Origin: Anaerolineae bacterium
GTDB taxonomy: Bacteria > Chloroflexota > Anaerolineae > Aggregatilineales > Phototrophicaceae
Assembly: GCA_019912965.1 (NCBI GenBank)
Contig: JAIOHM010000158.1
Coordinates: 1 to 64,000 of the forward strand
DNA length: 64,000 nt
Direction: 5' to 3'
The notes under the pieces: model-generated
What the model was told of the DNA's origin: nothing
Database searches by the model: none
The model's input: the letters and a program-made list of their open reading frames with translations, nothing else
In this document: piece by piece, positions 4,588-46,405 of the stretch
Layout: each line of letters opens with the position of its first letter
Position numbering within the stretch: position 1 is the stretch's first letter
Translations under genes and position numbers: made by a program

Positions 4588-4613
4588 AATTCTCCGTCAA
4601 CTTTGGATGCCCG

Positions 4614-5930
4614 CTACAACCGATGAACGCGCATTTGAATGCCTCCAGCGGGAACCAGTGTCGCCGCTGCTGATGGTCGTATGGTTTGTCCCGGCAGCAG
4701 TTCAAAGTTCAGCCGGGGGAGCAGAGTCGCCAGAACCAGCATCATGGTATGCAGCGCGAAGGGCTGTCCAATGCACACGCGCGGCCCGCCCCCAAATGGG
4801 AAGTAAGCAAAACGCGGCAGTTGTTTTTCTGCGCTATCCTGAAAGCGTTCTGGCCGGAAAACATCCGGTTCATCGAAATAAGCGGCATTGCGGTGTACCA
4901 GATACGGGCTGATGAACAGCGTTCGTCCGGCAGGAATCGTATAGCCGCCCACCGTAACATTTTCGACCGGTTCGCGGTCAAACAGCCATGCTGCCGGATA
5001 CAAACGCAGCACCTCTTTAAGCACCTGATCGAGAAACGGCATCTGCTGAGGATTGACTTGCCCGCCGTTCTGCCCGATTTCCACCAGCAGTTTTTCGTGT
5101 GCCGCCGGATGCTGGCTCAAGAGATACCACACCCACGCCAGCGTTGTCGTTGTGGTTTCGTAGCCGGCAAAGAAAATCGTCGCAATCTCATCGCGGATTT
5201 CTTTGTCGCTCAGGGGTTGCCCGCTGTCCGCATCCTGTGTATTCAGCAGCATCGTCAGCAAATCAGCCGGAGGTTCAGCCATGCGCCGCCGTTCAGCAAT
5301 CAGCCGATAAACCGTCGCATCCAGTGTCGTGACCGCCTGCCGCAGAATCCGGTTGCCTTCTGTCGGCAGCCAACCGGGAAGCGAAATCGGGCTGCGAACC
5401 CGTAAGTCCAGCGCCTGACTGAACGAATGCAGCGCTGCCCGAATCTGTCCGGTTTCTGCTAAATTGGCGGAAAAGAACGTTGTTACCACAATGTCCAGCA
5501 TCAGATCAGCCAGCGCCGGAACAATATCCAGCGTTTCCCCTTCGGTGCGCTGCTCAAGCCACTTCAGTGTATGCTCGATCACCACCTGCGTATACTGCTG
5601 CACCTGCCGCGTATGGAAGGCGGGCTGCATCACGCTGCGGTGGCGTCGGTGTTCATTTCCCTCCAGCGAAACCAGCCCTGCGCCCAGCAAACCCGCCAGT
5701 AATTTTTTCGTGCTGCCCGTTTTATGAAACAATTCCGGGCGCTTTAACAGAATATCCGCGATAGCCTCCGGGTCGGCGATCAGCACCATGCGGGCAGGGC
5801 CAGCCCGAAATTGGGTAATCGAACCATAATCGCGGCTGGTCGTCACCAGAAATTGCAGGAAATTACCCCGCATGTCGTTGAGACTGCCCAGCAGAGGGTG
5901 ACCAACCGGGCCGGGAATGCTGCCTGTCAC
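4614..5930 (-). CDS. Cytochrome P450 monooxygenase
   Basis: A 438-residue soluble P450. The I-helix oxygen-activation motif AGYETT is near residue 255, the ExxR motif sits in KEVLRLYP near 310, and the heme-thiolate loop FGGGPRVCIGQ near 385 gives the Cys ligand. Length and motifs fit bacterial class P450s that hydroxylate or epoxidise lipophilic substrates, and the HxF-type heme loop is closest to the CYP4/CYP102/CYP110 kind. The start is a GTG eight bases after the stop of the upstream peptidase, with AGGTGA as ribosome binding site, so the two form an operon. No ferredoxin or reductase gene is adjacent. The substrate cannot be inferred. Confidence 0.92.
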   Translation of the reverse strand: MTGSIPGPVGHPLLGSLNDMRGNFLQFLVTTSRDYGSITQFRAGPARMVLIADPEAIADILLKRPELFHKTGSTKKLLAGLLGAGLVSLEGNEHRRHRSVMQPAFHTRQVQQYTQVVIEHTLKWLEQRTEGETLDIVPALADLMLDIVVTTFFSANLAETGQIRAALHSFSQALDLRVRSPISLPGWLPTEGNRILRQAVTTLDATVYRLIAERRRMAEPPADLLTMLLNTQDADSGQPLSDKEIRDEIATIFFAGYETTTTTLAWVWYLLSQHPAAHEKLLVEIGQNGGQVNPQQMPFLDQVLKEVLRLYPAAWLFDREPVENVTVGGYTIPAGRTLFISPYLVHRNAAYFDEPDVFRPERFQDSAEKQLPRFAYFPFGGGPRVCIGQPFALHTMMLVLATLLPRLNFELLPGQTIRPSAAATLVPAGGIQMRVHRL

Positions 5931-5938
5931 GATTTCAC

Positions 5939-7885
5939 CTATGCAAACACCACATGCTGCTTCAGAAAATTCAACGTCGCGTTGTAATAATGTTCAATCG
6001 TCTCCGGCTTGCGCCAGCCGTGTCCCTCGCCTGCATAAACGTGGTACTCGTGCGGAATGCCTTTCCGCCGCAGGGCTTCCACAATCGAATCCGATTGGGA
6101 TTTCACCACCACCTTATCATCCTCACCCTGAAACACGATCATCGGATCAACGATTTTGTCCGCATGGAAAAGCGGCGAACGTTCCCGGTACAGATCAGCC
6201 GCTTCCGGCAGCGGCCCAAGCAGCGAATCGCTGTAGCGTTCCTCAAATTTGTGGGTATCCATCGCCAGCGAAAACTGGTTGCTTACCCCATACAGGCAGA
6301 CACCTGCTTTGTAAAAACCCGGTTTATCCACCAGCGATTGCAGCACTGTGTATCCGCCCGCGCTGCCGCCCAGAATTACGAACCGGCGCGGATCAGCCTT
6401 GCCTTGCGCTGCCAGATATGCCGCCCCGGAAGCCGAATCTTCCACATCGTAAATGCCCCAGTTGCCCCGCAGCTTGTTCATATAGGCTTTTCCGTAGCCG
6501 GTGCTGCCCCGGTGGTTGACCATAAACACCGCGAATCCACGTGTAGCGAAAACCTGTGCTGCCACGCTGAAGCCTGCCCTCACTTGCGAGGTCGGCCCAC
6601 CGTGTACATAAACGATCAGCGGTGGCGCGCCTGTACCTTCAAATCGTTCATTCTTCGGCGCATAATACAACCCGTAGGCCGTTTCGCCGTCGTGTCCTGC
6701 CCATTCAATCGCCTCGGCTTCAGCCAGCGCGGAAGCGGGCAATGTTTCCCCACTCGCACGGCGGTGAATCCGTTCGCGCTTTTCTTCCCCCACCACCACC
6801 GCGATTGACGGCTGCTCGGTTGATTGCAGTGAAAGGGCAGGCGGCGCGGGCGGGCTGAAATCCAGACTCACCACACGCGGCGAGGTCTGTGAATTGGCCG
6901 CGATCACCGCCAGCGTATGACCCTCCGCAGCAACCGCAATCTGCCCCAGATCGGTGTAGGCTTCCAAACCCGGCAGGCGGCTGGATTGCTGACTGGTTAT
7001 ATCCACCCGCCACAGGCTGATGAAACCCTGTTCATTCCGTAAATAAAGGATACTTTTGCTATCTGCCGTCCAGCCGTATACCCGCAAGCCCTGTATCCAT
7101 GCCGGGGTCGCATGATCGGCCTCAACCGTCGTCAGTTGGGTATGTGTTCGGCTCTGGATGTCATAAAAATAGAGTTGATTCCACCCGGTTTGGTCGCTCA
7201 CATAAGCCAGATAGCGACCATCCGGCGAAAACTCCGGCTGGAAAATCGCGTTGTCCACTCCGCCAACAATCGTCTCGGTCGAGGCTGCACCCGGCACACC
7301 TGCCCGATCATATTCCAGCGTCACGAATCGCAGCTCTGTGACATCCCACGGCATATTGGGATGATTCCACGCGATGTAAGCCGCATATTCTCCGACAGGA
7401 TGCCACGCGGGCTGCATGATGAAATCCGTCCCGGTGGCGAACTGGCTTGGCCACGATTTGCCTTCCGCATCCACCAGCGCCAAGCCGTCGTGATGTTCAT
7501 AACTGTAAACGTACAGCAGCCATTTCCCATCTGCCGAAAGGCGCGGTGCAGCCACTTCCCCAAAAGACGGCGTAATCGCTTTGGCAATGCCGCCGTTCAA
7601 AGGCTGACGGTACAGCCGCGACCCGATGCCGAAGTAAACATGCCCATGCCCAACCGTAAACGCGCCGCCGCCATAACCGACCGCGCCGCGTGCCGAAAGC
7701 TCCCCGGTCAAATCGCGTGGGGCTTCCGTTCCAGTCTGCGCCACCAGCACCCCGCGCGGCCCGCGATTTTCATGCCAGACCAGCGTATCGCCGTCCCACT
7801 GCACATCGTTCAGGCTAAGCATTTCGGCATAGGCTTTGGGCGAAAAAGGACTCGACCATGTGCCAAAGGCTTGTTTGGTGGGCAT
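5939..7885 (-). CDS. S9-family (prolyl oligopeptidase/acylaminoacyl-type) serine peptidase
   Basis: A 648-residue protein. An N-terminal beta-propeller of about 370 residues carries TolB/WD-like strands such as PEFSPDGRYLAYVSD. It is followed by an alpha/beta-hydrolase domain. The nucleophile is in GGSAGG near residue 505, with the catalytic Asp in the EDDKV region and the His in GEGHGW. The family cleaves short peptides or acyl-blocked N-termini in the cytoplasm, and no signal peptide is seen. The start chosen is the ATG at 7885, with GGAG seven bases upstream, rather than the GTG one codon earlier. It leads an operon with the P450. Whether the pair acts on a common compound is unknown. Confidence 0.88.
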   Translation of the reverse strand: MPTKQAFGTWSSPFSPKAYAEMLSLNDVQWDGDTLVWHENRGPRGVLVAQTGTEAPRDLTGELSARGAVGYGGGAFTVGHGHVYFGIGSRLYRQPLNGGIAKAITPSFGEVAAPRLSADGKWLLYVYSYEHHDGLALVDAEGKSWPSQFATGTDFIMQPAWHPVGEYAAYIAWNHPNMPWDVTELRFVTLEYDRAGVPGAASTETIVGGVDNAIFQPEFSPDGRYLAYVSDQTGWNQLYFYDIQSRTHTQLTTVEADHATPAWIQGLRVYGWTADSKSILYLRNEQGFISLWRVDITSQQSSRLPGLEAYTDLGQIAVAAEGHTLAVIAANSQTSPRVVSLDFSPPAPPALSLQSTEQPSIAVVVGEEKRERIHRRASGETLPASALAEAEAIEWAGHDGETAYGLYYAPKNERFEGTGAPPLIVYVHGGPTSQVRAGFSVAAQVFATRGFAVFMVNHRGSTGYGKAYMNKLRGNWGIYDVEDSASGAAYLAAQGKADPRRFVILGGSAGGYTVLQSLVDKPGFYKAGVCLYGVSNQFSLAMDTHKFEERYSDSLLGPLPEAADLYRERSPLFHADKIVDPMIVFQGEDDKVVVKSQSDSIVEALRRKGIPHEYHVYAGEGHGWRKPETIEHYYNATLNFLKQHVVFA

Positions 7886-7952
7886 CACAAATCTCCGTCG
7901 TTTTATGCGGTGTAAATTGACTGAATTTTAGCGTCTGTTTACAGGAAGTAAA

Positions 7953-7975
7953 AACGCCCCCGAAGGGGCGTTGGT
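7953..7975 (-). terminator. GC-rich hairpin with U-run on the minus strand
   Basis: AACGCCCC and its complement close over a CGAA tetraloop. Reading the minus strand, the stem runs into TTTTT, a good intrinsic terminator shape. No gene on that strand feeds it from the right, so either a small unrecognised transcript ends here or the hairpin protects the peptidase gene from read-through. Confidence 0.55.
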
Positions 7976-7981
7976 TTGTTT

Positions 7982-8032
7982 GGTGTGGAGGGGGAACAAA
8001 AAACTATTTAAAAAGTATTTTTTCTCCACACC
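7982..8032. repeat. 51-bp A/T-centred palindrome
   Basis: GGTGTGGAG (7982-7990) is mirrored exactly at 8024-8032. The interior is A-rich on the left and T-rich on the right and can extend the stem imperfectly. It sits in the 617-base gap 7886-8502, which shows no convincing protein gene. The rest of that gap is AT-rich and holds a small imperfect repeat around TTGTACAA near 8305 and a TATAAT box at 8463. Confidence 0.5.
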
Positions 8033-8462
8033 GTGTCATTTTTCTGATCGTCAGTATAGGCCGCATCTTTGGGGGCGTCAATCACTTGTTGAAAGCCCTC
8101 TGCATTGTGCAAATCAGAATTAGCGATAATTCCAAAAGGTACAATCACCATTCTTCAAGCATACTTTTATGTGGATTGTGTTAAATCTTGTTTATCCTTG
8201 TTAAAATCCTTGCGAAAGCATTAATCCCTTTACGTGAGTGCACAATTAATTCATCATGAGAGCTTTGTAGCGAACATTTGTCTCAGCCTAAAGTTCGTAT
8301 AACTTGTACAACTTTCGGTGGAGTTTTGCAGGGAAATATGACTGGTTTTTTCATCTGTCTACATGATTTGCCTGATTCACAGCGTTGCAACGACAAATGT
8401 TATATCATTACTGGAACACGCTCCCCCAAAGTGTGAGGGGAAAATGATGAGCCATCCTGAGC

Positions 8463-8502: not shown

Positions 8503-9141
8503 GTGAACAGCCTCAACGCACTTGTGATGGATCCAAATATTGTTTATGTTGTGCTGGTCGTCGGATTATGGGCAACGGTTACTGCCGCCTACATTCCCGG
8601 CACTGGCATCGTGGAAGGTATTGCGGCGATTGCTGTCATCGCGGCGATGGTGGCGCTGATAGGACTGCCAACGCAGTGGATCGCAGCCATTCTGTTGATG
8701 GTCGGTGTGTTGAGCTTCCTGCTCATCCCCTTCCTCAATCAGCGTTGGGCGCGGCTTGCCGAAGGCGGTCTGGTCTTGCAGGTGATCGGCAGTCTGTTCC
8801 TGTTTAACGGCTTGCAGGTTTCGTGGCTGTTAATCGGCTTTATGATTGTGGTATCAATTGCGTATCATCGTTTAGCCCTGCTGCCGCTGCTGGAAAAAAC
8901 CCGCAATCAGTCCGCCGTGATTGATGATAACGGCCAACTCATCGGTTCGACCGGGCGCGTTGTAAAACCGTCTGAAAAAATCGGCGCGAACCATGTCGGC
9001 TCGGTCAACATTAACGGTGAACAATGGACAGCGTACAGCGATCACCCCCTGCGTGTTGGGGAACAGGTTATGGTGATCGAACGCGAAGGACTGCAACTTT
9101 ACGTCGAAGGTGTTAAACACAAACAGGCACCACAGAATTAA
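8503..9141 (+). CDS. NfeD-family membrane protein
   Basis: A 212-residue protein with four to five hydrophobic helices in residues 10-130 and a soluble C-terminal OB-fold of about 70 residues (GSTGRVVKPS onward). This is the truncated NfeD form, without the N-terminal ClpP-like serine protease of long NfeD. NfeD proteins pair with SPFH/stomatin proteins in membrane microdomains, and the SPFH gene follows here after 14 bases. The start is a GTG with GAGG ten bases upstream; an ATG at 8527 is a possible alternative. Function beyond membrane organisation or stress response is not shown. Confidence 0.85.
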   Translation: MNSLNALVMDPNIVYVVLVVGLWATVTAAYIPGTGIVEGIAAIAVIAAMVALIGLPTQWIAAILLMVGVLSFLLIPFLNQRWARLAEGGLVLQVIGSLFLFNGLQVSWLLIGFMIVVSIAYHRLALLPLLEKTRNQSAVIDDNGQLIGSTGRVVKPSEKIGANHVGSVNINGEQWTAYSDHPLRVGEQVMVIEREGLQLYVEGVKHKQAPQN

Positions 9142-9155
9142 CTTAGGAGGAATGC

Positions 9156-10109
9156 ATGGACGAATTATTGGGTGGTCAGGCATCATTGATCTTGTTGGTC
9201 GTTGGTATTCTGCTGTTATTCTGGCTGCTATCGCGGTTAATCCGCATCGTGCCAGAAACCGAACGGCTGGTCGTGCTCTCGCTGGGGCGCTACGCCGGAA
9301 CGCGCGGGCCGGGGGTTGTCATCGTCATCCCGGCGATTGAGCAGGCGCGCAAAGTGGATGTGCGTGAACGCTTTCTGGACATCCCCTCGCAGACCGCCAT
9401 CACCAAAGACAACGCGCCGATTGCCATTGACTTTCTGGTCTACTACCGGGTGGTTGAACCCAAACTGGCCGCGCTCACCGTTGAAAATGTGGTCAGCGCC
9501 ACCGTCAACATTGCCACCACCACCCTGCGTGCCGTCATCGGTGACATCAGCCTGGACGATGTGCTGGCGAAGCGCGATCAGATTAACGATACCCTGCGGA
9601 TCAAGCTGGATGAAGTGACTGAACGCTGGGGCATGAAGATCACCACCGTTGAAATCCGCGAAATTCAGCCGCCGCGCGATGTTCAGGACGCCATGAACCG
9701 CCAGATGACCGCCGAGCGCGAACGCCGCGCCACCGTTACGCGAGCCAGTGGTGAACGGGAAGCCGCAATTGCTGTTGCTGAAGGTGAAAAGCAGGCTGCT
9801 ATTCTGCGTTCTGAAGGTGTGAAGCTGTCCGCAGTTCTGGAAGCCGACGGTGAACGGGAAGCCCAGTACCTCCGTGCTCAGGGTTTTGCAATGGCCTTGA
9901 AAGCCATTTCCACGCAGGCGAAGGATGTTGATACCAACACGCTGGCACTGCAATATCTGGATGCCCTGCGGGTTGTGGGCAGCAGTCCTTCAACCAAATT
10001 TATCCTGCCGATGGAATTGACTTCTCTGGCGCAGCAGTTAATTGGCACGATGACCAATAACAATAACAACAATCAGACTCCGCGCGAGAATACCCCAAGC
10101 GGGGATTAA
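9156..10109 (+). CDS. SPFH/Band 7 (slipin/stomatin-like) protein
   Basis: A 317-residue protein. An N-terminal hairpin or TM helix (residues 8-28) is followed by the SPFH core (RIVPETERLVVLSLGRY onward). Next is a helical Ala/Glu-rich coiled coil with repeated GEREA/AEGEKQAA units (about 190-240), then a polar Asn-rich tail. A strong AGGAGG precedes the ATG. Such proteins oligomerise into membrane rings and usually partner the NfeD protein encoded just upstream. The gene ends 23 bases before a strong terminator. Confidence 0.92.
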   Translation: MDELLGGQASLILLVVGILLLFWLLSRLIRIVPETERLVVLSLGRYAGTRGPGVVIVIPAIEQARKVDVRERFLDIPSQTAITKDNAPIAIDFLVYYRVVEPKLAALTVENVVSATVNIATTTLRAVIGDISLDDVLAKRDQINDTLRIKLDEVTERWGMKITTVEIREIQPPRDVQDAMNRQMTAERERRATVTRASGEREAAIAVAEGEKQAAILRSEGVKLSAVLEADGEREAQYLRAQGFAMALKAISTQAKDVDTNTLALQYLDALRVVGSSPSTKFILPMELTSLAQQLIGTMTNNNNNNQTPRENTPSGD

Positions 10110-10131
10110 CGCCCCGGATAGAGCCATCATG

Positions 10132-10165
10132 AAGCCCGCCTCTCAATGGAGACGGGCTTTTTGTT
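10132..10165 (+). terminator. Rho-independent terminator of the nfeD-SPFH operon
   Basis: AAGCCCG pairs with CGGGCTT around an inner TCTC/GAGA stem and is followed by a run of T with one G. It sits 23 bases after the SPFH stop codon. Confidence 0.85.
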
Positions 10166-10203
10166 TATAATCGGCGCAGGTTCAATAATTAAGGATACGC
10201 CCC

Positions 10204-10983
10204 ATGTCCCAAGCCCTCACCTACAGCAGTTACCTTCGCGTGGATGAACTGCTCTCCCTTCAGACACCCAAAAGCAGCGGCCCGGAACATGATGAAATGC
10301 TGTTCATCATCATTCATCAGGTCTACGAACTGTGGTTCAAACAGCTTTTGCACGAACTGGATTATGCCGGGGAACTGCTGCGGGCCAACGATACCGCGCG
10401 GGTGAACCATACCATTCATCGCGTGCTGACTATCCTCAAAACCATCGTCGCGCAGATCGATGTACTGGAAACCATGACTCCGCTGGAATTTAACTCGTTC
10501 CGCAATTTTCTGGAAAGTGCCAGCGGTTTTCAGTCGGCACAGTTCCGCGAAGTCGAATTTCTGATGGGTTACAAACGCCCCAATATCGCCCATCATTTCC
10601 CGGACGAGGTGCAGGAACGCTTGCAAAACCGCCTTCACCAGCCATCGTTGTGGGATGCTTTTCTCCGCTATCTGGTGCTGAATGGGTATCCCATTCCCGC
10701 CGAGGCGCTGAACCGGGATGTAACGCAGGCGGTCGCAGAATCGTCGGGGGTACAAGCCGTTTTGATTGATGTCTACCGCCGGGATGCATCCGTCAGCGGT
10801 GTGTGTGAACGCCTGCTTGATCTGGATGAAGGAATGCAGGAATGGCGCTACCGTCATGTCAAGATGGTTGAACGCACCATCGGCATGAAACGCGGTACAG
10901 GCGGTTCGTCCGGTGTTGAATATCTCCGCAGTACCCTCAAATCCTTCTTCCCTGACCTGTGGGCGATCCGGTCGCAGCTTTAG
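10204..10983 (+). CDS. kynA: Tryptophan 2,3-dioxygenase
   Basis: A 259-residue heme dioxygenase that opens the indole ring of L-tryptophan to N-formylkynurenine. Family motifs are the N-terminal HDEMLFIIIHQVYELWFKQ helix, the PLEFNSFRNFL region, a His in YRHVKMVERTIG that matches the axial heme ligand, and the substrate-loop GTGGSSGVEYLR. The length is near the short bacterial TDO forms. The ribosome binding site AAGGA lies eight bases before the ATG. No kynureninase or formamidase gene is adjacent, so the rest of the pathway must lie elsewhere. Confidence 0.93.
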   Translation: MSQALTYSSYLRVDELLSLQTPKSSGPEHDEMLFIIIHQVYELWFKQLLHELDYAGELLRANDTARVNHTIHRVLTILKTIVAQIDVLETMTPLEFNSFRNFLESASGFQSAQFREVEFLMGYKRPNIAHHFPDEVQERLQNRLHQPSLWDAFLRYLVLNGYPIPAEALNRDVTQAVAESSGVQAVLIDVYRRDASVSGVCERLLDLDEGMQEWRYRHVKMVERTIGMKRGTGGSSGVEYLRSTLKSFFPDLWAIRSQL

Positions 10984-11083
10984 GCAAACAACCGGAAAAT
11001 ATGGCCTGTTACCCGATTACAGCTTCGTAACCTGTTCGGGTATCTGCACAAACCACACAATTCCATCTACGCACGAGAACGGC

Positions 11084-11089
11084 TATAAT
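11084..11089 (+). promoter_or_regulatory. Possible -10 box before the ABC exporter operon
   Basis: A perfect TATAAT lies 130 bases upstream of the ABC ATPase start, in the 235-base gap after kynA. The matching -35 position (TTCCAT) is poor. The long leader between it and the ATG shows no recognisable riboswitch. Confidence 0.35.
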
Positions 11090-11218
11090 GCGCCCCCGGT
11101 CGTTCGTGAAAACGGATTCATCAAACGCTCAGGATTTTTTCATCCAGACGCGTTAATTTACCGAGTTGCGTTTTCAAACCTCCTCCAACTTAAAGAAAGA
11201 GTAGGTAGGACTCTTCAT

Positions 11219-12184
11219 ATGATTGAAGTACAGGATTTAGTGAAAAATTATGGCCCGGTAACGGCTGTGAAGGGCATTTCCTTCATCGCCCAGCCGGGAC
11301 AGGTGACGGGTTTCCTGGGGCCAAACGGCGCAGGGAAGACCACCACCATGCGGATGTTGACGGGCTTTTTGCCCCCTACATCCGGTAAAGCGCTGGTCGC
11401 GGGCTTCGATGTGTTCGATCAGAGCATGGAAGTTCGCAAGCGTGTCGGCTATCTGCCGGAAAGTGTACCGCTGTACCGCGACATGACCGCCCTCAGCTAC
11501 CTGATGTATATCGGGGAAATCCGGGGTGTTCCCCGGCGGCGCGACAAAGCGATGGAAACGCTGGAACGGGTTGCCCTCACCAGCCGCGCCAACAGCCGCA
11601 TTCGCACCCTGTCAAAAGGGATGCGGCAGCGTGTCGGTTTGGCCTCAGCGCTTCTCCACGATCCCGATGTGCTGATTCTGGACGAACCCACCATCGGCCT
11701 CGACCCCATTCAGGTGCTTGAACTGCGTGAAGTCGTTCGTGATCTCGGCAAGCACCACACCGTCCTTTTCAGCACCCACATCCTCTCCGAAGCGGAACAA
11801 ATCTGCGACAAAGTGGTCATCATCAATCAGGGACAGATTATTGCTCAGGGTGCGCCCAGCGAACTCCGCAGCAATCTGGAACGCGGCGGGCGTGTGCTGC
11901 TGCGCGTCAATGTCCCGCCGGAAGTGGCCTTGTCTGCTGTTCAGGCCGTGCCGGAAGTTTCTCATGCCGAAGTTAATCTGGATAGCATCGTGGCGGCTCC
12001 GGCTCAGATTGGGATTGATCCCCGTCCGGCCATCGCCCGCGCGATTGTCCAGCAAGGCTGGGATTTGGTCGAACTCCGCCCGTTGGCTGTGAATCTGGAA
12101 GAAATCTTCCTGGAACTGACGCGCCAGCAGGTCGTGGCGGATGTGCCCACCGAACCTGAACTGGAAAGTGAGGTTGTTCAATGA
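11219..12184 (+). CDS. ABC transporter ATP-binding protein (GldA-like)
   Basis: A 321-residue ATPase with Walker A GPNGAGKTT, signature LSKGMRQRV, Walker B LILDEP and the H-loop STHIL. The C-terminal extension of about 90 residues is typical of ABC-2 exporter ATPases. The ATG at 11219 is chosen because GGTAGGA lies just upstream and the protein then opens as the family does (MIEVQDLVKNYG). The open frame extends back into kynA without family similarity. It is the first gene of a four-gene operon with ATGA overlap to the permease. The layout matches the gliding-type GldA/GldF/GldG exporter, although gliding itself cannot be read from it. Confidence 0.9.
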   Translation: MIEVQDLVKNYGPVTAVKGISFIAQPGQVTGFLGPNGAGKTTTMRMLTGFLPPTSGKALVAGFDVFDQSMEVRKRVGYLPESVPLYRDMTALSYLMYIGEIRGVPRRRDKAMETLERVALTSRANSRIRTLSKGMRQRVGLASALLHDPDVLILDEPTIGLDPIQVLELREVVRDLGKHHTVLFSTHILSEAEQICDKVVIINQGQIIAQGAPSELRSNLERGGRVLLRVNVPPEVALSAVQAVPEVSHAEVNLDSIVAAPAQIGIDPRPAIARAIVQQGWDLVELRPLAVNLEEIFLELTRQQVVADVPTEPELESEVVQ

Positions 12185-12933
12185 GACAGATTATCGCGGT
12201 TTATAAGCGCGAACTCGGTTTGTATTTCCGTTCTCCGGTGGCCTATGCCATCGCTTTTGCCTTAATGCTGTTCTTCGGCCTTCTGTTCAGCAACAGCGTG
12301 AACAGCGCCAACGGGCAAGCGCCTGCCGACGGCGTGAACTTCGTGCCAAATTTGCTCACCTTCCTGTTGTTTTTGGTCGGGCCGCTGCTCACCATGCGTT
12401 TGCTGGCGGAAGAAACCCGCGAAGGCACACTGGAAGTGTTGATGACGCTGCCGATGAAAGAATCGCAGTTCATCATCGGCAAGTTCTTCGCCGTCTGGAC
12501 GTATTACACCATCGTCCTGCTGTTGACCGTTATTTACCACATCATTCTGACTGATGTTGGCGTGCCGGATATGGGACGCGCGTTTACCATGTATCTCGGT
12601 GCATGGCTCTACGGTGGCGCAGTGCTGGCGATCACCATGATCTGGTCAGCCGTGACCGAAGATCAGATCGTCGCGGCCTTCCTCGGTGCGGCGACTGTGC
12701 TGGTGCTGTATCTGGCAGAAGTGGCCGCCGCGTGGGTTGCCAGCCTGCCCAATCAGTCCGATGTATCTGGCCTGACCAATTTTGTGCGTGAAATCGGTTT
12801 GCAGGCGCACTATGAAGCCACACTGTTGCAAGGCATCATCCGTGCTGAAGATATTCTGTACTTTGTATTCATGATTATTGCGGCGTTGTTCATCACGACC
12901 CGCATTGTAGAAGTGAGGCGGTGGCGTTCATGA
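12181..12933 (+). CDS. ABC-2 type permease (GldF-like)
   Basis: A 250-residue integral membrane protein with six predicted helices. It opens with the conserved YKRELGLYFRSPVAYA segment of ABC-2 permeases. It overlaps the ATPase stop by ATGA and its own stop overlaps the next start. It should form the membrane channel driven by the preceding ATPase. Confidence 0.88.
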   Translation: MRQIIAVYKRELGLYFRSPVAYAIAFALMLFFGLLFSNSVNSANGQAPADGVNFVPNLLTFLLFLVGPLLTMRLLAEETREGTLEVLMTLPMKESQFIIGKFFAVWTYYTIVLLLTVIYHIILTDVGVPDMGRAFTMYLGAWLYGGAVLAITMIWSAVTEDQIVAAFLGAATVLVLYLAEVAAAWVASLPNQSDVSGLTNFVREIGLQAHYEATLLQGIIRAEDILYFVFMIIAALFITTRIVEVRRWRS

Positions 12934-37718: not shown

Positions 37719-38798
37719 CTATTTGCGCCGAACCAAGTAGCGATCCCCTTCATGGGTGACAAGTTCATGTTTCGCCAATCTGCACCAGGCGGGCAAATCG
37801 GTGGCGACGCTCGGCTCGGTTGCCCGAACTTCCAGCGTTTGTCCGGGTTCCAGACCGTGCAGCAGTGCCGCGATTTCGTCGAGCGGGCCGTCCGCACAGC
37901 CTTTGTCGCCAGCATCGTAGAAGGCATCCGCTCCAAAAATAGAAACCGGATGTGCTTCGGCTAATTCCACGACGGGAAGTGCCGCTAGCGCCGCATCCCA
38001 TTCCGCTTGATTGACCGCTTTCCGGGCGCGAAAATTGATGCCCAACGTACCAAAGTTCGCCGCACTGGATTGCTGTGGCGCGCCGTCGAAAACGACATCC
38101 TGCCAGGTAATCTCGAAACCCACAAAGCCTGCCTTCACAACGGTGGCATATAACTCGGTTTCCAGCACAGCACCAGCAATGCAGCCTGTCCAGAGTTCAA
38201 TCTTTTGTTTGGCGCTGGTCGGTACTGCTTTCTGGACGACGAGATCCCCAATTTGCAAGCGTCCACCCGGCTTCAATACCCGCGCCATCTCCTTCAATGC
38301 TGCCGCTTTGTCTGGCATTAAGTTCAGCGCGCCGTTGGAGATCACAATATCCGCCCAGCCGTCTGGGACAGGTAAAGACTCAGCGTATCCTTCACGGAAC
38401 TCAACATTGGCAAATTGCGCTTCGGCGGCACCGCGCCGCGCCTTCGCCAGCATCGCCGGGGTCATATCAACGCCAATGACCCTGCCGCCAGTCCCCACCA
38501 TTTTGGCGGCGATCAAACTGTCAATGCCTGCGCCGCAGGCTACATCCACCACTTGCTCGCCGACCTGTATTTCGTCAATGCTGAATGGATTGCCTGTGCC
38601 AGCGAACGATTCGATGGACGTTTCCGGGATGCCTTCCAGCCACGCATCGCGGTATCCCAGCATTTGGGCGAGTGGACGACCTGTATGGAAATGGAAGCCC
38701 TGCTGTGGATTCAGCGCGACGGCTCCATATTCTTCTTGAATAGCAAACCGCAGTGCTTCCAGATTGAGACCGAGATCCTGGATAACGTTATCACTCAT
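37719..38798 (-). CDS. SAM methyltransferase fused to TusA-like domain
   Basis: 359 residues. Residues 1-270 are an ArsM/UbiE-like methyltransferase (VVDVACGAGIDSLIAAKMVG near 85, GVDMTPAMLAKARRGA). Residues 295-359 form a TusA/SirA-like sulfur-carrier domain with CADGPLDEIAALLHGLEPGQ and a second Cys in PAWCRLAKHEL. TusA normally has CPxP; here Cys is kept and the spacing is changed. An arsenite-methyltransferase-like activity with thiol delivery by the C-terminal domain is plausible. The three Cys of ArsM were not confirmed. GGAG precedes the ATG. It heads the unit with DsrE and OsmC and diverges from the LuxR-hydrolase gene. Confidence 0.82.
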   Translation of the reverse strand: MSDNVIQDLGLNLEALRFAIQEEYGAVALNPQQGFHFHTGRPLAQMLGYRDAWLEGIPETSIESFAGTGNPFSIDEIQVGEQVVDVACGAGIDSLIAAKMVGTGGRVIGVDMTPAMLAKARRGAAEAQFANVEFREGYAESLPVPDGWADIVISNGALNLMPDKAAALKEMARVLKPGGRLQIGDLVVQKAVPTSAKQKIELWTGCIAGAVLETELYATVVKAGFVGFEITWQDVVFDGAPQQSSAANFGTLGINFRARKAVNQAEWDAALAALPVVELAEAHPVSIFGADAFYDAGDKGCADGPLDEIAALLHGLEPGQTLEVRATEPSVATDLPAWCRLAKHELVTHEGDRYLVRRK

Positions 38799-38918: not shown

Positions 38919-40103
38919 ATGAATGGTCGCAGCGATAAGTTCACAAAGAAGGTCATCAATTGGGACGCAATCATGGAGGAGAAACCGACATCACCGGATG
39001 ATCTGACGGAACGTGAAAGAGAAATCCTGGAACGACTGGCAGCCGGACTCTCCGACCACCAGATCGCCGACGAATTATTCCTCAGTTGGAATACGGTCAG
39101 ATGGTACAATCGCCAAATTTACAACAAACTAGGGGTCGGCAACCGGACCCAGGCTATCGCTCAGGCGCGAGCATTAGGACTCTTGGACACGAAAGATACT
39201 CCCACTTCTCAAGCCGTTCATTCAACTGATCCACCCCCCGCCTTAGAACGCCGGAAGAGGGAACAGCGCGTTTATTTCACCAACAGTTTTGATGGAACGC
39301 GGATTGCTTACTCGATTGCCGGGAACGGTCCGCCGCTGGTCAAAGCCGCCAATTATATGAGCCATCAGGAGCATGATTGGGATAGCCCGGTATGGCGGCA
39401 CTGGCTAGAAGAACTGACTCACGAACATACCCTGATCACGTCCGATGAGCGCGGCTCTGGACTGTCAGACTGGGATACCAAAGATGTATCATTTGAAGCG
39501 TGGGTGCATGATCTCGAAGCGGTGGTGAATGCAGCAGATGTCCGACAGTTTCCTGTCTTTGGGATGTCACAGGGCGGTGCAGTTGCCGTTGCTTATGCCG
39601 CGCTTCACCCCGAAAAGGTCAGCCACCTGATTGTACACGGGGGTTATGCGCGGGGCTGGTTGAAGCGTGACTTAACCCCAGAGCAGCTTGAAGAAGAGAA
39701 GTTAATGATTGATTTGATGCGGGTTGGCTGGGGAAAGGAAAATCCTGCCTTTCGCCAGGTGTTCGCCATGCAGCTTTTTCCCCAGGCACCCTCCGAACAA
39801 ATCTACGCTCTGGAAGCGCAAATGCGCCTCTCGATTTCTCCCGAAAACGCAGTCCGGTTGGAGAGTGAAATGCATCGCATTGACGTGCGCCAGCTTGCGA
39901 CGCAGATCAAAGTCCCTACCTTGATTTTGCATTCCCACGGGGATGAAGCCGTGCCGTTTGACGAAGGGCGTCTCCTTGCTTCGTTGATTCCCAATGCTCA
40001 GTTCGTTGCGTTGGATAGCAAAAATCACCTTTTGACGGAACACGAACCCGCCTGGCAAAAATTTGTTGCTGCCTTCCGCAGCTTCCTAAGCGATGAAAAA
40101 TAG
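38919..40103 (+). CDS. LuxR-type HTH fused to alpha/beta-hydrolase
   Basis: 394 residues. Residues 28-90 are a GerE/LuxR HTH (LTEREREILERLAAGLSDHQIADELFLSWNTV). Residues 120-394 form an alpha/beta-hydrolase with nucleophile motif GMSQGG, acid in HSHGDEAVPF and His in KNHLLTEH. The fold suggests a regulator that hydrolyses or senses a small ligand. The same fusion order occurs in adenylate-cyclase-linked regulators of other bacteria. The start is uncertain: no good ribosome binding site precedes 38919, and the HTH would remain intact from 38973. It is divergent from the sulfur unit and is the natural candidate regulator. Confidence 0.8.
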   Translation: MNGRSDKFTKKVINWDAIMEEKPTSPDDLTEREREILERLAAGLSDHQIADELFLSWNTVRWYNRQIYNKLGVGNRTQAIAQARALGLLDTKDTPTSQAVHSTDPPPALERRKREQRVYFTNSFDGTRIAYSIAGNGPPLVKAANYMSHQEHDWDSPVWRHWLEELTHEHTLITSDERGSGLSDWDTKDVSFEAWVHDLEAVVNAADVRQFPVFGMSQGGAVAVAYAALHPEKVSHLIVHGGYARGWLKRDLTPEQLEEEKLMIDLMRVGWGKENPAFRQVFAMQLFPQAPSEQIYALEAQMRLSISPENAVRLESEMHRIDVRQLATQIKVPTLILHSHGDEAVPFDEGRLLASLIPNAQFVALDSKNHLLTEHEPAWQKFVAAFRSFLSDEK

Positions 40104-40165
40104 CGATTAAGACTGTACTGCGGGCGGAATCATGGACAGAATTAACCGGTAGAAAAGAGGGGATT

Positions 40166-40490
40166 CAAACCCGCCAGAGCGACACCTCAAATTCAGTCGG
40201 TGTCTGGTAGTTCAGCGACGAATGAACCCGCTCGGTCATGTATTCCACATCCAACCAGTGCTTCAACTGGTTGAAAGCATCGTCAAAATCCGGTAATCGG
40301 CATAGTCCACATGCTCTTCCTTCACGGTTCGCATAAAACGCTCGACAATGCCGTTTTGGGTCGGACTGGCTTTGTCCGACATACTAATCTTCACGTCCGC
40401 TTCGAGTAGGAGGCAGGTGTGGGCGAAAGAAGCGTATAGGATACCCTGGTCGGAAAGGAACATGAAGGGAGTGGCTTTCGCCAACGTCAT
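40166..40490 (-). pseudogene. Truncated, frameshifted rve-type transposase remnant
   Basis: The minus strand encodes SDQGILYAS, then SMSDKASPTQNGIVERFMRT, both hallmarks of the integrase core of IS3-type OrfB. A one-base frameshift near 40,270 separates this from the C-terminal part (FDDAFNQLKHWLDVEYMTERVHSSL). The first half of the gene is missing. It is a dead fragment. The gap 40,491-40,809 holds nothing else I can name. Confidence 0.75.
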
Positions 40491-40809: not shown

Positions 40810-43161
40810 ATGTTACGTCACTTCTGGATTGTGATTATTTGTCTTACCATCATAGGCCTCTCCGGCGCAATTCAAGCACAAGAAACCACAGTATGGCAAA
40901 CAGGGGAAGGCATTAGTAGCACATTATTTGACGCCCAGAGATTACTATTCACAATCAATCGAGCTGATGATCCTAATGCCGTCTATATTGAAGCACAGGC
41001 ATTGCTGGGTCAGGCAAGAACAGCCTACACAGACCAACTACAACAGACAGCAAACGATTATTCACCTGAAGCAGCCTCTGCGGTCACTGAGGCTTTAGCA
41101 GATGCTCAATTCGCGCTGAATTCTGAGAATCCAATCGCATTTGCTGCGGCACGTGGACGTGTCTGGGCAAACCTGCTATGGGTTAGTTATGAGGTGGTGG
41201 AAGGGACACTCACCGCCGGAGATATCAACACAGCACAGGAATGGTTACTCTTGCGTGAGTATCGACAGGCTACCGTAGTGAGCTTCGTAGATAGTTCTGC
41301 GACACTCGCTATTCGCGCCGCCGCAGAGGGTGGTTCCATATCAGGCGAAACGGCGGTGCTTGTTCTTAACGATCTGCGGGATACGTACTACTTCCGGCTA
41401 CGAGATGCGCTCAGCGAACTGGAAGATGCCGCTGGCGAAGGCCATACCATTCGAGCGGCAGAGTGGGCAGGACAGGCTGGCGGTTACTTCCAAATCCTGC
41501 GGGCAGATTTTGTGCAAAAACAGGGCAGCACGTCAGCTACCGCAGTCGATGAAACCTTCGTGCAGATGCAATCCGATACACTAGAGCAGAACTGGGACGC
41601 AGTGCGGGAACACATCGTCGGCGTGCGAGATTTACTCGCGGATTACCAACCGGTCGAACTCTCACCGGAATTAATCGCTGAACGTGGACGACTGCTCTAT
41701 CTATTCCTCAAGCTGGTGTACATCGAATACCGTGACGGAGTCCGCAATGGCGCAATCACCATCCCGATTGAATACCAGGAAGCGACGACTTTCCTCGCTC
41801 AGGCACGCAGCATCTATGAGGAACTGCGCCCGGTCATTGCCGCGTCTGACCCGGAAGCGGCGCAGAGCCTAAATGAACTACTGGCAGCGATTGATACCAC
41901 CATACACGACCTGGGCGATGCGGCAGCCGTGCAGACCGCCGTCAACGAGAGTCTGTCACTGGTGCAGCGCACCTTGCAGGTAGAGGTGAACGGCGGCGAC
42001 ATCGCGGCGACTTTCACGGTGATTGATACCCTGCTGGATGAAGTCATCATTGCGGCGGAAGATGGGCGTTATGCCGAAGCAGAACGGACTCGCATCGAAG
42101 CCTATGGCTTGTTCGAGAGCGGACCAGAACTGCGGCTTGCTAACCGTGCCCCCATCCTGAGCCGGGAACTCGAAGGCTTGTTCTGGGAGGGCAGCGGCGG
42201 ACAACTAGGGTTATACACCCTGCTGGATCAGGAAGCCGACAGCGCGACGCTGCAAACGACCGTGGCAGCAGTGCGCGTCAAACTCGCCGAAGCGGAAACT
42301 TTCCTCGGTGGCGCTCTGACCACCCCGCTGGCGGCACTAAACAGCGCCATCATCATCATCCGCGAAGGGTTAGAAGCGGTACTGATTATCGGCGCGATCC
42401 TGGCATACATGTTCAAGACCAGGGTGCAACGCCGTTTTATCGTCTGGGTGTTTGCCGGGGTTGTCGGGGCAATTGCACTGAGCATTGCAACCTGGTTTGC
42501 CGCTGAAACCATTCTTACCATCACTCCCGTGCAGCGTGAACTCATCGAAGGCATTACCAGCCTGATCGCGGTTGCCGTGTTGTTCTATGTCACCAACTGG
42601 CTGTTTCATAAAGTCTATGTGGTGGACTGGATGCAGTTCGTCCGTGAGCAGACAGACAGGTCGCTGAATAACGGACGGGTTGTTGGATTGGCGGTTCTCG
42701 GATTCACGGTGGTCTACCGTGAAGGGCTGGAAACGGTGCTGTTCTACCAAGCGCTGTTGTTCGATGCCGAACCTGCCCCGGTGCTGCTCGGCTTTGCCGT
42801 CGGTTTGGTGTTTATCCTGGTCGTCGCCTATGCGATCCTCTCCCTGAGCAAGCGCCTGCCGCTTAAACCACTCTTTACTATCACGACGATCCTGCTGCTG
42901 GTGCTGGCATTCAGTTTTACCGGCTCAGGCGTGCGGGAATTGCAGGAGGCGGGTGTGGTCAGTGCCACCCTACTGCCCTGGTTCCCGGAAAATCTGCTCC
43001 TGATGGAGCTGTTTGGCTTGTTCCCAACCCTTGAGACTGTCTTGGCTCAGGTGATCTTTACCGCGCTGATTGTGCTGACCTTTACCTTTAGTCGCTGGCA
43101 GGGCAGACGGGAAACTGCTGCTGCTACCCAAAAACCTAAATCACAGGAGGTTCATTCATGA
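40810..43161 (+). CDS. FTR1-family iron permease with large N-terminal domain
   Basis: 783 residues. A signal peptide (residues 1-23) precedes about 490 residues of helical extracytoplasmic sequence. The C-terminal FTR1 domain of seven TM helices follows. The two iron-binding REGLE motifs are at about 518-522 (IIREGLEAVL) and 637-641 (VYREGLETVL), as required for ferric or ferrous iron transport. E. coli EfeU lacks the long N-terminal domain, which here may replace or bind an EfeO-like partner. It overlaps the next gene by ATGA. No clear Fur box was found, only a weak TTCA-N7-TGAA near 40,780. Confidence 0.9.
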   Translation: MLRHFWIVIICLTIIGLSGAIQAQETTVWQTGEGISSTLFDAQRLLFTINRADDPNAVYIEAQALLGQARTAYTDQLQQTANDYSPEAASAVTEALADAQFALNSENPIAFAAARGRVWANLLWVSYEVVEGTLTAGDINTAQEWLLLREYRQATVVSFVDSSATLAIRAAAEGGSISGETAVLVLNDLRDTYYFRLRDALSELEDAAGEGHTIRAAEWAGQAGGYFQILRADFVQKQGSTSATAVDETFVQMQSDTLEQNWDAVREHIVGVRDLLADYQPVELSPELIAERGRLLYLFLKLVYIEYRDGVRNGAITIPIEYQEATTFLAQARSIYEELRPVIAASDPEAAQSLNELLAAIDTTIHDLGDAAAVQTAVNESLSLVQRTLQVEVNGGDIAATFTVIDTLLDEVIIAAEDGRYAEAERTRIEAYGLFESGPELRLANRAPILSRELEGLFWEGSGGQLGLYTLLDQEADSATLQTTVAAVRVKLAEAETFLGGALTTPLAALNSAIIIIREGLEAVLIIGAILAYMFKTRVQRRFIVWVFAGVVGAIALSIATWFAAETILTITPVQRELIEGITSLIAVAVLFYVTNWLFHKVYVVDWMQFVREQTDRSLNNGRVVGLAVLGFTVVYREGLETVLFYQALLFDAEPAPVLLGFAVGLVFILVVAYAILSLSKRLPLKPLFTITTILLLVLAFSFTGSGVRELQEAGVVSATLLPWFPENLLLMELFGLFPTLETVLAQVIFTALIVLTFTFSRWQGRRETAAATQKPKSQEVHS

Positions 43162-44216
43162 AACATGTGTTGATTGTTCTATCGCTTTTGCTCTTTGTCG
43201 TACTACCGGCTGCTGCACAGGATGCAGCAGAAGCTGACCTGGCTGGTATCAGAGACTATCTGATTGTGCATGGTGACCAGATGCAGGTCAGTACAGATGC
43301 TATTCAAGCGGACGCGCAAGCGTATTTTGATCGCGTCCAGCAGGTTATCGATGAGCATCCAAATGAAGACCCCTACGCGTATCTTTGGAATGAATATTCG
43401 GATGAACTTGTGCCGCTGCTGCTTCACGCTAAACAAAGCTGGATTCTTGCCCACAACGATTATGAACTGGTCGAAGGCATTGTCGCCGGGGTGCCATCAT
43501 TGGCATTCTACGACACCTGGATTGATGCCGGCTCATCCTGTGAGGAAGCGCCTGACGAATGTGTAGAGTGGACGCTGGAACTAAACGACGGGCGTGTGTA
43601 TGAAAGCCCTGGCAATATCTTCCACAACCTGCTGGAAACAACCTTGTGGGGCACAGTGGAAGAATATACGTCCATGCAGGCGGATTTGGACGGAGACGGA
43701 CAGATCGAACTGGGTGAAGCGCTGCCTGAAGCCAATATGTTCCTGGCCGTTGCCATGGCGATGAACCAAGCGACGGCAGAGATGAACCAGGCCATCGCCG
43801 CCTGGGAGCCGACGCTGGAAGATACTTTCACCGCCCTGTTGACGATGCTCCCCACCATGGGTGAATACTTTGAGGAATGGAAGCTCTCGTCGTTCATCAC
43901 CGGGGAAGATCCTCGCTTTGTAGCACAGACGCGCCTGGTGGACATCAAGGGTATCGCTACCAGCCTGGATGTGATCTACTCATACGTCGATCCGCTGGTT
44001 GCGGCTCAGGATGCAGCACTGGATGAACAGATTGAGAGCGGTTTTGACGAACTGCTGGACTTCCTGGATCAGGTCTATACTCAGGAGCAGGTAGGTGTCG
44101 AGTTCAGCCCCGAAGAAGCCGACTTCCTTGGGACTGAAGCACAGGGTATGGCACAATCATTAGCAGCACTGGTTGCACAGGCGGCAGCCGCACTGAATCT
44201 GGATCTGGAACCCTGA
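43158..44216 (+). CDS. Secreted helical protein with EF-hand loop, FTR1 partner
   Basis: 352 residues with a Sec signal peptide ending PAAAQ. Mostly helical. A perfect 12-residue EF-hand calcium loop, DLDGDGQIELGE, lies near 176-187. Two Cys (SSCEEAPDECVEW, near 125) may form a disulfide. It overlaps the FTR1 gene by ATGA with CAGGAGG upstream, so it is surely part of the iron transport unit, in the position of EfeO/imelysin-type proteins. The imelysin GxHxxE motif is not evident, so the family call is tentative. Sequence near HNDYELVEGIV could hold metal ligands. Confidence 0.75.
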   Translation: MKHVLIVLSLLLFVVLPAAAQDAAEADLAGIRDYLIVHGDQMQVSTDAIQADAQAYFDRVQQVIDEHPNEDPYAYLWNEYSDELVPLLLHAKQSWILAHNDYELVEGIVAGVPSLAFYDTWIDAGSSCEEAPDECVEWTLELNDGRVYESPGNIFHNLLETTLWGTVEEYTSMQADLDGDGQIELGEALPEANMFLAVAMAMNQATAEMNQAIAAWEPTLEDTFTALLTMLPTMGEYFEEWKLSSFITGEDPRFVAQTRLVDIKGIATSLDVIYSYVDPLVAAQDAALDEQIESGFDELLDFLDQVYTQEQVGVEFSPEEADFLGTEAQGMAQSLAALVAQAAAALNLDLEP

Positions 44217-44229
44217 GCTTCCGTGTAAA

Positions 44230-44277
44230 AAGTGAGTTGTCAGCCATGAACGCGGCTGGCGACTCGCTTATTTTATT
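44230..44277 (+). terminator. Rho-independent terminator of the FTR1 operon
   Basis: A 16-base stem (left arm AAGTGAGTTGTCAGCC, 44,230-44,245; right arm 44,254-44,269) pairs fully if three G-U pairs are allowed. It is followed by TTATTTTATT. It separates the iron permease unit from the cytochrome pair. Confidence 0.88.
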
Positions 44278-44321
44278 ATGCAATATGATGTTGCACCCAC
44301 CAAGTGAAGTACGAGGTTTCC

Positions 44322-44891
44322 ATGAGTGTTGATACCCCTGTTCCCGTCACCGCAAGATCACAACCTCAAGTACGTGCCGCACGATACCGGCGACCTGCTG
44401 CTTTCCTGGCAGCCTTCGCCGTACTGTTCGGAACCGCGCTGACCAGTGGTTTATATTATTATTTGGTCCCGCACGATAAAAACTGGAATGTCTCGCAGGT
44501 GATGTTGATATTGCACATTATCAGCGGCACATTGGCCTTTCCAGTGCTTATTCCCTTTGTTATATCTCATCAACGGTATCAAGAAGGTCGCTCCTTATTG
44601 CTGCTTATGCCCTGGCTGGCTTTCCGGCATCGGCAGGATGAACCGACTCGGAAATACCACCAGCGCCTATTGGGTCATACCCTGAATGGAAGTATTCTCG
44701 TGCTGATTCTGAGTGGCTTTCTTATGGTGGTACCCGGTTTGTTGTGGTTCGCCGGGATCATCTGGATACCAGATTATCTAGCTTACCAGGTCAGCAACGC
44801 CATTCATCTGGGAACTGCGCTTGTGGCTGTGGGGTTATTGCTGGTACACCTGCGAGGGCGTCGCAACGCCAATAGAGGAGGTGGGCGATGA
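44322..44891 (+). CDS. Four-helix membrane protein, probable b-type cytochrome
   Basis: 189 residues from the ATG at 44322 (GAGG five bases upstream). Four TM helices. His residues lie at helix edges: LILHIISG (helix 2), KYHQRLLGHTLNGSILV (helix 3) and SNAIHLGTALVAVGLLLVH (helix 4). This spacing resembles cytochrome b561 or formate-dehydrogenase gamma-type heme b subunits. It overlaps the pentaheme cytochrome gene by ATGA. A quinone-linked membrane partner for that cytochrome is the likely role. Confidence 0.65.
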   Translation: MSVDTPVPVTARSQPQVRAARYRRPAAFLAAFAVLFGTALTSGLYYYLVPHDKNWNVSQVMLILHIISGTLAFPVLIPFVISHQRYQEGRSLLLLMPWLAFRHRQDEPTRKYHQRLLGHTLNGSILVLILSGFLMVVPGLLWFAGIIWIPDYLAYQVSNAIHLGTALVAVGLLLVHLRGRRNANRGGGR

Positions 44892-46405
44892 CCCGCCCTA
44901 TTCGTCTTATGCTGTTTAGTGGCTTGGTGTGCCTTGCACTGGGTATTGTTTTAAGCCTGATTATGCCTGAGACCGAGAGCGATGGACTGATTCTCGGCGA
45001 AGATATCCCATACTACTCGCTGCCCTGGAACGACAATCCGTTTTTTCCCGGCGAAATCACTACCAGTGACGGGCTGCTGGCAAATTGGGAGACCGTGCCT
45101 TCTTCCGAATTCTGCGCGCAGTGTCACTATAGAGAATATGAGGAATGGGTTGTTTCTATTCACGCTGTCTCGGGTCCAGACATCATTTATGAAACGGCCA
45201 TAAATGCGAATGAACATGCTCACGACAACCGTCACGGCACCGAGAAAATCCGCTGGTGTGATAGTTGCCATGAACCGCTGCTCACGCTGATGGGCGGGGT
45301 GAACCCCCTACCCGTTGTCGGTCCCAACGATGCTGCCGCCGAAGGAACCAGTTGTATTGTTTGCCATACCGCCGTTGCTTCCAAACCACTGGCTGGTAAT
45401 GGGGCATTGACGCTGGCGATCAATAACATCAATAACTACGAGCCGGCATTGATACTGGCCGCGCCTGCGGAACATGCCAGGGCGATGCAGGCGAGAACCT
45501 ACAACCCATTGATGGGGCAATCTGAACTCTGCGGAGCCTGTCATACCGAGATCCGCCCACTTGCCATAAATGGTGATGAACCGATGAATTTGCAGGATAC
45601 CTTTGACGAGTGGCGGCGCAGCGAATACGCCGAAATGAACATTCAGTGCCAGGACTGCCATATGAGTTCTAACCCTGCTGAGTACATTGCCGCTCTCAAC
45701 CGGGGCGAACAACCGGAGCGCGTCGTCTCACACCGTTTTGTCGGTATCAATTATCTGCTGACTGCCGCCGACCTGCCGGATAATCTGGTTGTCTTCTTAC
45801 GGGGTGGGCATCCGCCTGGCGACATCCCGCGCGACGAATGGCGCGCATCGCTGCTTGAACAGCAACACCTGATTCTATCGCTATTGCAAGAGGCTGCCGA
45901 TTTAGCTCTGGAAGCCCCGGAAACCGCCGTGCCCGGCGAAGAGCTTGCGTTCGATGTGACTATCACCAACAGTGGAGCCGGGCATGATCTGCCGACCGGA
46001 CCACGCGATCAACGCTATATGTGGCTGGAAATTCGGGTTACTGATGTCAACGGCGATGAGATATATCACAAGGGCTGGTTCAACGAGCAAACCGGCGAAG
46101 TAGACCCGGAAGCCATCATGTATCTCAAACTCCTTTATGACGAGCAAGACGAGCGGATCACCGAACATATTCTGTTCGATGTTGATCACATTGAATATAC
46201 CCGTAACCCTATTCCGGCGCGGAGTAGTGACACCATCCCCTATGTCTTCACTGTGCCGGTTGACAGTCAGGGGCCGTTGCGGGTCGAGGTGCGGCTGTGG
46301 TATAGGCTGGCTTTGCAGGAATTGGCAACCTATCTGCTGAAGATTGATGTTGTGATACCACCCGTCGTGATGGCAGAAACCGCTGTTGAGATCCCTTTGC
46401 AGTGA
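44888..46405 (+). CDS. Pentaheme c-type cytochrome
   Basis: 505 residues with an N-terminal signal or anchor helix (LMLFSGLVCLALGIVLSLI). Five CxxCH motifs occur at about residues 75 (CAQCH), 124 (CDSCH), 156 (CIVCH), 215 (CGACH) and 254 (CQDCH), with extra His in between for bis-His ligation. The C-terminal 200 residues form a beta-rich domain (AFDVTITNSGAGHDLPTGP). The pattern resembles cytochrome c554/NrfA-relatives and other multiheme electron carriers. The extracytoplasmic location and b-type partner suggest electron transfer from the quinone pool to an external acceptor, or the reverse. The proximity to iron permease genes allows an iron-redox role, but a terminator separates them. Confidence 0.88.
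   Translation: MTRPIRLMLFSGLVCLALGIVLSLIMPETESDGLILGEDIPYYSLPWNDNPFFPGEITTSDGLLANWETVPSSEFCAQCHYREYEEWVVSIHAVSGPDIIYETAINANEHAHDNRHGTEKIRWCDSCHEPLLTLMGGVNPLPVVGPNDAAAEGTSCIVCHTAVASKPLAGNGALTLAINNINNYEPALILAAPAEHARAMQARTYNPLMGQSELCGACHTEIRPLAINGDEPMNLQDTFDEWRRSEYAEMNIQCQDCHMSSNPAEYIAALNRGEQPERVVSHRFVGINYLLTAADLPDNLVVFLRGGHPPGDIPRDEWRASLLEQQHLILSLLQEAADLALEAPETAVPGEELAFDVTITNSGAGHDLPTGPRDQRYMWLEIRVTDVNGDEIYHKGWFNEQTGEVDPEAIMYLKLLYDEQDERITEHILFDVDHIEYTRNPIPARSSDTIPYVFTVPVDSQGPLRVEVRLWYRLALQELATYLLKIDVVIPPVVMAETAVEIPLQ

Follow-up and report, generated by a model that had tools for sequence, protein, structure and literature searches.

The yeast iron permease Ftr1 depends on the ferroxidase Fet3. 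Oxidase coupling of FTR1-type permeases is described in yeast and has likewise been proposed for the FtrABCD system, whose ferroxidase was still termed unknown in 2025 (PMC11966278), and the EfeUOB system employs a peroxidase together with an M75 protein (PMC9174327). Here we analyzed an operon in a stretch of 64,000 nucleotides from an Anaerolineae bacterium (contig JAIOHM010000158.1, positions 1 to 64,000; hereafter the window). It consists of four genes in the order FTR1-M75-CYB-CYC, encoding an FTR1-family permease (FTR1), an EfeO-like imelysin (M75), a cytochrome b (CYB) and a pentaheme cytochrome c (CYC), and this gene set is referred to as the cassette. It is likely that the cytochromes carry out an iron redox step for FTR1 in one direction or the other, and we see an even chance that the whole is a heme-wired iron import system running in the oxidative direction. 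An interpretation made earlier from the DNA alone (the sequence-only reading) had called such an uptake-coupled redox system not described as such. This goes too far for FTR1-redox coupling itself, which is already known from EfeUOB, FtrABCD and fusion proteins; for the all-heme b/c version with its four parts, no description turned up in the literature search, which was restricted to open-access papers and did not extend to subscription journals.

The resemblance to EfeUOB (YcdNOB) lies in an FTR1-family permease that adjoins a secreted M75/imelysin protein and in a heme protein as third partner. However, EfeB is a DyP-type peroxidase, whereas the window encodes a membrane di-heme b-type and a pentaheme c-type protein, its permease carries a large outer domain, and the NCBIfam equivalog scores fall far short (109 bits versus 255 for EfeU, 26 versus 270 for EfeO). 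FtrABCD of Brucella and Bordetella is also a four-gene FTR1 system with import proposed to be powered by ferrous oxidation (PMC11966278), the same logic as proposed here, but FtrA, FtrB (a cupredoxin) and FtrD are neither multiheme nor b-type cytochromes, and the FtrABCD families (P19-type FtrA, cupredoxin FtrB) gave no Pfam match among the four window proteins. In a fusion permease on a Sphingomonas plasmid a c-type cytochrome is physically tied to FTR1; in contrast to the separate pentaheme protein of the window, this is a single CXXCH of a class-I heme domain (Cytochrome_CBB3) inside the permease, with neither M75 nor cytochrome b annotated alongside. A CYC-type pentaheme domain with 29% identity to the Shinella CYC lies directly upstream of an FTR1 gene in Aeromonas caviae (L162), but there it has an N-terminal extension with a sixth heme, the FTR1 is short (279 aa) and no CYB or M75 was seen. 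At this locus (4369-8177) the gene of the 989-aa six-heme cytochrome overlaps the FTR1 gene, which represents a second and simpler FTR1-multiheme pairing, in Gammaproteobacteria.

The positions given for the four genes in the sequence-only reading were all confirmed as open reading frames. A scan of genome contigs with a CYC alignment yielded 14 close orthologues (59-83% identity), all from Chloroflexota, and a further genome search added one more (G600), so that 15 other Chloroflexota genomes are represented. The order FTR1-M75-CYB-CYC is present at 13 of 13 Chloroflexota loci with sufficient contig, window included; the other three CYC loci are truncated by contig ends and the order is not readable there. 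Gene spacing at the Chloroflexota loci is mostly short gaps or 4-bp overlaps, the latter found in the window for FTR1/M75 and CYB/CYC. The flanks are unrelated, with no other gene common to more than four of the 16 loci, and a chance neighbourhood was rejected because the gene order is kept while the flanks differ. CYC was detected in 11 of the 150 genomes of a single family, and a cassette-type FTR1 (at least 50% identity) was found in 10 of these 11 and in no others; in the eleventh genome the locus is cut by a contig end.

The partnership is not confined to Chloroflexota. A search of plasmid records with an FTR1 domain uncovered a Nitratiruptor sp. (Campylobacterota) plasmid with the order ferritin, imelysin, small membrane protein, multiheme cytochrome and FTR1, whose proteins share 37% (M75), 35% (FTR1), 37% over full length (CYC) and 24% (CYB, E 6e-5) identity with those of the window. 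Searching with the Nitratiruptor CYC led to a plasmid of Shinella sp. HZN7 (Alphaproteobacteria), on which imelysin, DUF4405 protein, multiheme cytochrome and FTR1 genes overlap 3' of nos genes, and a second Shinella also has all four cassette genes. Unlike in Chloroflexota, the order in Nitratiruptor and Shinella is M75-CYB-CYC-FTR1, and therefore the partnership outlives rearrangement. The finding named in the sequence-only reading as speaking against it, the cytochrome pair elsewhere without FTR1, is absent for true orthologues. It was encountered only in two distant proteins (L063 and L064, at most 31% identity), in which a CYB-like four-helix segment with paired histidines and a CYC-like heme region are joined in one chain; their gene neighbours are different ones, and FTR1 is not nearby. 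These fusions support a single electron path via CYB and CYC, and they also show that iron uptake is not the only use of the b-c module. One of the two fusions (L063 8672-11608 and L064 9043-11274, both on the minus strand) ends in TPR repeats, and in both the first heme motif resembles CX3CH.

The FTR1 of the window matches Pfam FTR1 (PF03239) with 95.2 bits against a cut-off of 25.3 (5.5e-27) and is composed of a signal peptide, an extracytoplasmic helical domain of about 480 aa and the C-terminal FTR1 membrane domain, in which REXXE occurs three times, at residues 518, 576 and 637. The outer domain was considered as a fused M75 domain, which was rejected for lack of a profile match. All three motifs are conserved without exception in the 14 cassette permeases compared, which represent three phyla. 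The 18 same-class EfeO-FTR1 permeases from outside the cassette have GE[RK]LE or GQRLE at the place of the middle motif, which leaves ordinary Chloroflexota EfeO-FTR1 permeases one REXXE short of the cassette type. In the FTR1 tree the cassette permeases form one lineage, and the non-cassette permeases fall together on one side of a branch with full support; two long non-Chloroflexota rows are placed with caution. A second M75-FTR1 pair of the same genome (contig C31, locus L044; M75 8924-9979, FTR1 10078-12423) has no cytochromes; its permease carries only two REXXE motifs, which makes the pair a natural internal control.

Additional evidence comes from the upstream regions of the relatives. 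Eight of nine relatives tested have, 100-127 bases 5' of the FTR1 start, a palindrome that differs from TTTTCAANNNNNTTGAAAA by 0-2 mismatches, and at most 4 of 500 shuffles match equally well. Exact copies of TTTTCAANNNNNTTGAAAA are rare, with nine in seven genomes: three are located 5' of the cassette, a fourth separates a DtxR-family gene from a cytochrome-free M75-FTR1 operon, a fifth directly precedes a different DtxR-family gene, a sixth follows a third gene of this family at a distance of about 100 bases, and the remaining three are elsewhere. The regulators combine Fe_dep_repress and Fe_dep_repr_C domains with a FeoA domain and are placed nearer to MntR than to DtxR by NCBIfam. We regard the palindrome as a candidate operator that looks similar to DtxR operators. 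Together, the synteny in three phyla, the co-occurrence with one FTR1 lineage and the palindrome in relatives strongly back the earlier proposal that the cytochromes act in the service of FTR1.

Table 1. Features of the cassette locus and palindrome sites in relatives; positions refer to the window unless a locus is named.
Feature	Position	Strand	Basis or source
FTR1-family iron permease, 783 aa	40810..43161	+	ORF, Pfam, alignment
EfeO-like M75/imelysin protein, 352 aa	43158..44216	+	ORF, Pfam, alignment
Hairpin with T-rich tail, 16 pairs, between M75 and CYB	44230..44269	+	
CYB, four-helix b-type cytochrome (b561/DUF4405-like)	44322..44891 (ORF from GTG 44304)	+	alignment, AlphaFold model, profile
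CYC, membrane-anchored pentaheme cytochrome c, 505 aa	44888..46405	+	alignment, profile, structure model
Palindrome TTTTCAANNNNNTTGAAAA, candidate operator	L169 1501-1519, L173 1501-1519, L043 5723-5741		one Anaerolineales family

M75 had been read as a secreted protein with an EF-hand. The EF-hand loop (DLDGDGQIELGE) is indeed present, but the protein belongs to the Pfam Peptidase_M75/imelysin family (1.4e-12, 48.2 bits versus a cut-off of 23.5) and is EfeO-like. It has a Sec signal, and most relatives carry a lipoprotein-type N-terminus. Where the GxHxxE motif would be expected there is a GNxFHxxxE region in which Glu160 is invariant and the His is shifted or absent; GxxxxE variants of this imelysin motif are known (PMC3143127). 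In EfeO-like proteins the loop forms an insertion, possibly a calcium or iron site, that is found in Chloroflexota, Campylobacterota and Alphaproteobacteria. It is also common in EfeO proteins that lack a cytochrome partner, and it was rejected as a hallmark of the cassette for this reason. In the M75 tree the window protein clusters with non-cassette EfeO, and therefore only FTR1 follows the cytochromes cleanly.

CYB probably starts at ATG 44322 instead of GTG 44304, as the homologues start at this Met; residue numbers are nevertheless counted from the GTG. The match to the Pfam cytochrome b561-type model (2.5e-5, 24.6 bits) is under the cut-off of 30.1, and DUF4405 is matched weakly in 10 of 13 CYB members and above its cut-off in Nitratiruptor. 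In an alignment of 15 sequences from three phyla, with identities to the window protein as low as 22%, invariance among ligand-type residues is limited to His 71, 89, 168 and 182; Trp 61 and the start Met do not vary either. Two His pairs in helices 2 and 4 correspond to the pattern of a transmembrane di-heme cytochrome b, so that two bis-His hemes are predicted. The AlphaFold model consists of four long helices. A Foldseek search with CYB gave no significant match, and the best VIA hit was cytochrome b6 with a Z of 11.7, a value below the firm level for helical bundles and within the range of any helical bundle. Histidines in helices are shared with DUF4405/FezC proteins: heme b binding was shown for a purified DUF4405 protein, and the relative FezC is located in iron ferrosomes, where it is proposed to cycle iron (PMC11334425). 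In contrast to CYB, the partners of these proteins are flavinylated proteins or the ferrosome and not FTR1, and the fit of CYB to the Pfam model is weak.

For CYC, the assignment as a pentaheme cytochrome proved correct, with five CXXCH motifs at residues 76, 124, 156, 215 and 254 and matches to Pfam multiheme c families. The five motifs are present in all 15 CYC orthologues compared, and across three phyla they are invariant together with exactly five other His (92, 196, 282, 366 and 427). Therefore, each heme could have a second His ligand, which favours an electron relay. An N-terminal transmembrane helix (residues 3-25) and a C-terminal beta domain are predicted; from the AlphaFold model only these two parts were used, as the heme region is unreliable (mean pLDDT 48). 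The nearest solved structure is the pentaheme cytochrome c552 of Thermochromatium tepidum (5ze8; profile E 2e-7, fold E 1.7e-9), which we take to be of low potential. The match spans the heme region and the C-terminal beta domain, but identity is only 19% and CYC has its predicted N-terminal membrane anchor in addition. The best NCBIfam model is ExtKL, a multiheme family presumably linked to metal or selenium reduction, with a score of 51.7 that does not reach the equivalog cut-off of 250.

For heme loading, electron path, substrate and direction we infer the following arrangement. The four gene products would form one iron-import machine, in which M75 and the large outer domain of FTR1 gather iron on the outer side of the membrane. 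CYC, held on this side by one helix, would exchange one electron with iron, and the four-helix di-heme CYB would move it across the membrane, into the quinone pool or out of it, while FTR1 would conduct the iron via its REXXE motifs. In the favoured direction, Fe(II) would be oxidised by CYC, the electron would reach menaquinone by way of CYB, and the newly formed Fe(III) would be handed to FTR1, so that CYC and CYB might take the role of EfeB in EfeUOB, of Fet3 in yeast or of the cupredoxin FtrB in FtrABCD. Tentatively, the cassette could even represent a widespread class of importers in which the electrons of iron enter the quinone pool through a dedicated b/c heme wire, and import would then be coupled to respiration and use neither ATP nor oxygen or peroxide directly. 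A four-gene unit that is intact in three phyla, with an explicit predicted membrane electron path beside a permease, offers a defined system for the coupling of iron redox chemistry and transport. Furthermore, it suggests that multiheme cytochromes beside iron genes do not always serve mineral respiration.

Several observations weigh against this arrangement. If all hemes are bis-His, none would be free for catalysis, and this fits a relay better than a classical oxidase, and the pentaheme cytochromes related to CYC are low-potential proteins that would suit ferric reduction. The palindrome was sought 5' of the window's own operon and not found. G256 and G200 have cassette-type FTR1 and M75 and no CYC; G200 is fragmented, and the loss in G256 is likely real because this genome is 98% complete. 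A Dyp_perox search found no DyP/EfeB in 12 cassette genomes, including that of the window, but EfeB is likewise missing from 18 of the 20 genomes that have EfeO-FTR1 and none of these cytochromes. With nearly all tested genomes devoid of EfeB, its absence is not discriminating and was discarded as proof that the cytochromes replace it. Because of the cytochrome-free pair in the same genome and the equally missing EfeB in non-cassette genomes, the cytochromes are not required by every FTR1 here. Heme-copper oxidase family genes are present in 32 of 32 genomes, which leaves an anaerobic niche unsupported as reason for the heme wiring.

As to direction, we favour oxidation on the basis of the permease family and consider reduction a serious, if less likely, rival. 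In the same machine reversed, menaquinol would deliver electrons via CYB and CYC to Fe(III) on M75 or on minerals, and soluble Fe(II) would reach FTR1, similar to the yeast ferric reductase Fre1, which acts before Fet3/Ftr1. A membrane b-type and multiheme c-type pair resembles quinol-linked reductases, and the all-His ligation predicted in CYC, the presumably low potential of its nearest solved relative and the ExtKL model point the same way. However, the general view is that FTR1 permeases are supplied by oxidation and not by reduction (PMC11966278), and EfeUO of Bacillus subtilis is reported to import ferric iron directly (PMC9174327), both of which count against reduction.

Two further explanations give the cytochromes or the permease another task. 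The b/c cytochromes could be a respiratory branch for a non-iron acceptor, with the iron genes merely co-expressed to supply heme iron. The distant FTR1-free b-c fusions, the position of the Shinella cassette after nos genes and apbE and the many respiratory relatives among CYC-type cytochromes are consistent with this; yet true CYC orthologues always occur with FTR1 and M75 where the contig permits, and a link that spans three phyla and two gene orders, with FTR1 lineage and motif following the cytochromes, makes it improbable. Even less credit is due to the idea that the FTR1 homologue carries another metal, like a PbrT-type transporter for lead or one for copper, or that the unit detoxifies ferrous iron. 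Such a role would suit the Sphingomonas fusion, which sits among heavy-metal genes, but the M75/EfeO partner, the ferritin neighbour in Nitratiruptor and the palindrome, which in relatives marks the cassette as well as EfeO-FTR1 and DtxR-family genes, all indicate iron.

The sequence-only reading had also placed a terminator between the two gene pairs. A hairpin with a T-rich tail is located there and might be terminator-like or attenuator-like, but it need not divide the operon, since the four genes are a single conserved unit in the relatives; an Rfam search gave no match. Just upstream of the operon the window contains the remnant of a broken integrase-core (rve_3) transposase (40165-40490, minus strand). 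As CYC is absent from both sampled genomes of the same genus, the operon may have been brought in by mobile DNA. Further upstream, an alpha/beta hydrolase is fused to a LuxR-type DNA-binding domain (38919-40103, plus strand), and an arsenite-methyltransferase-like protein carries a fused C-terminal TusA-like domain (37719-38798, minus strand).

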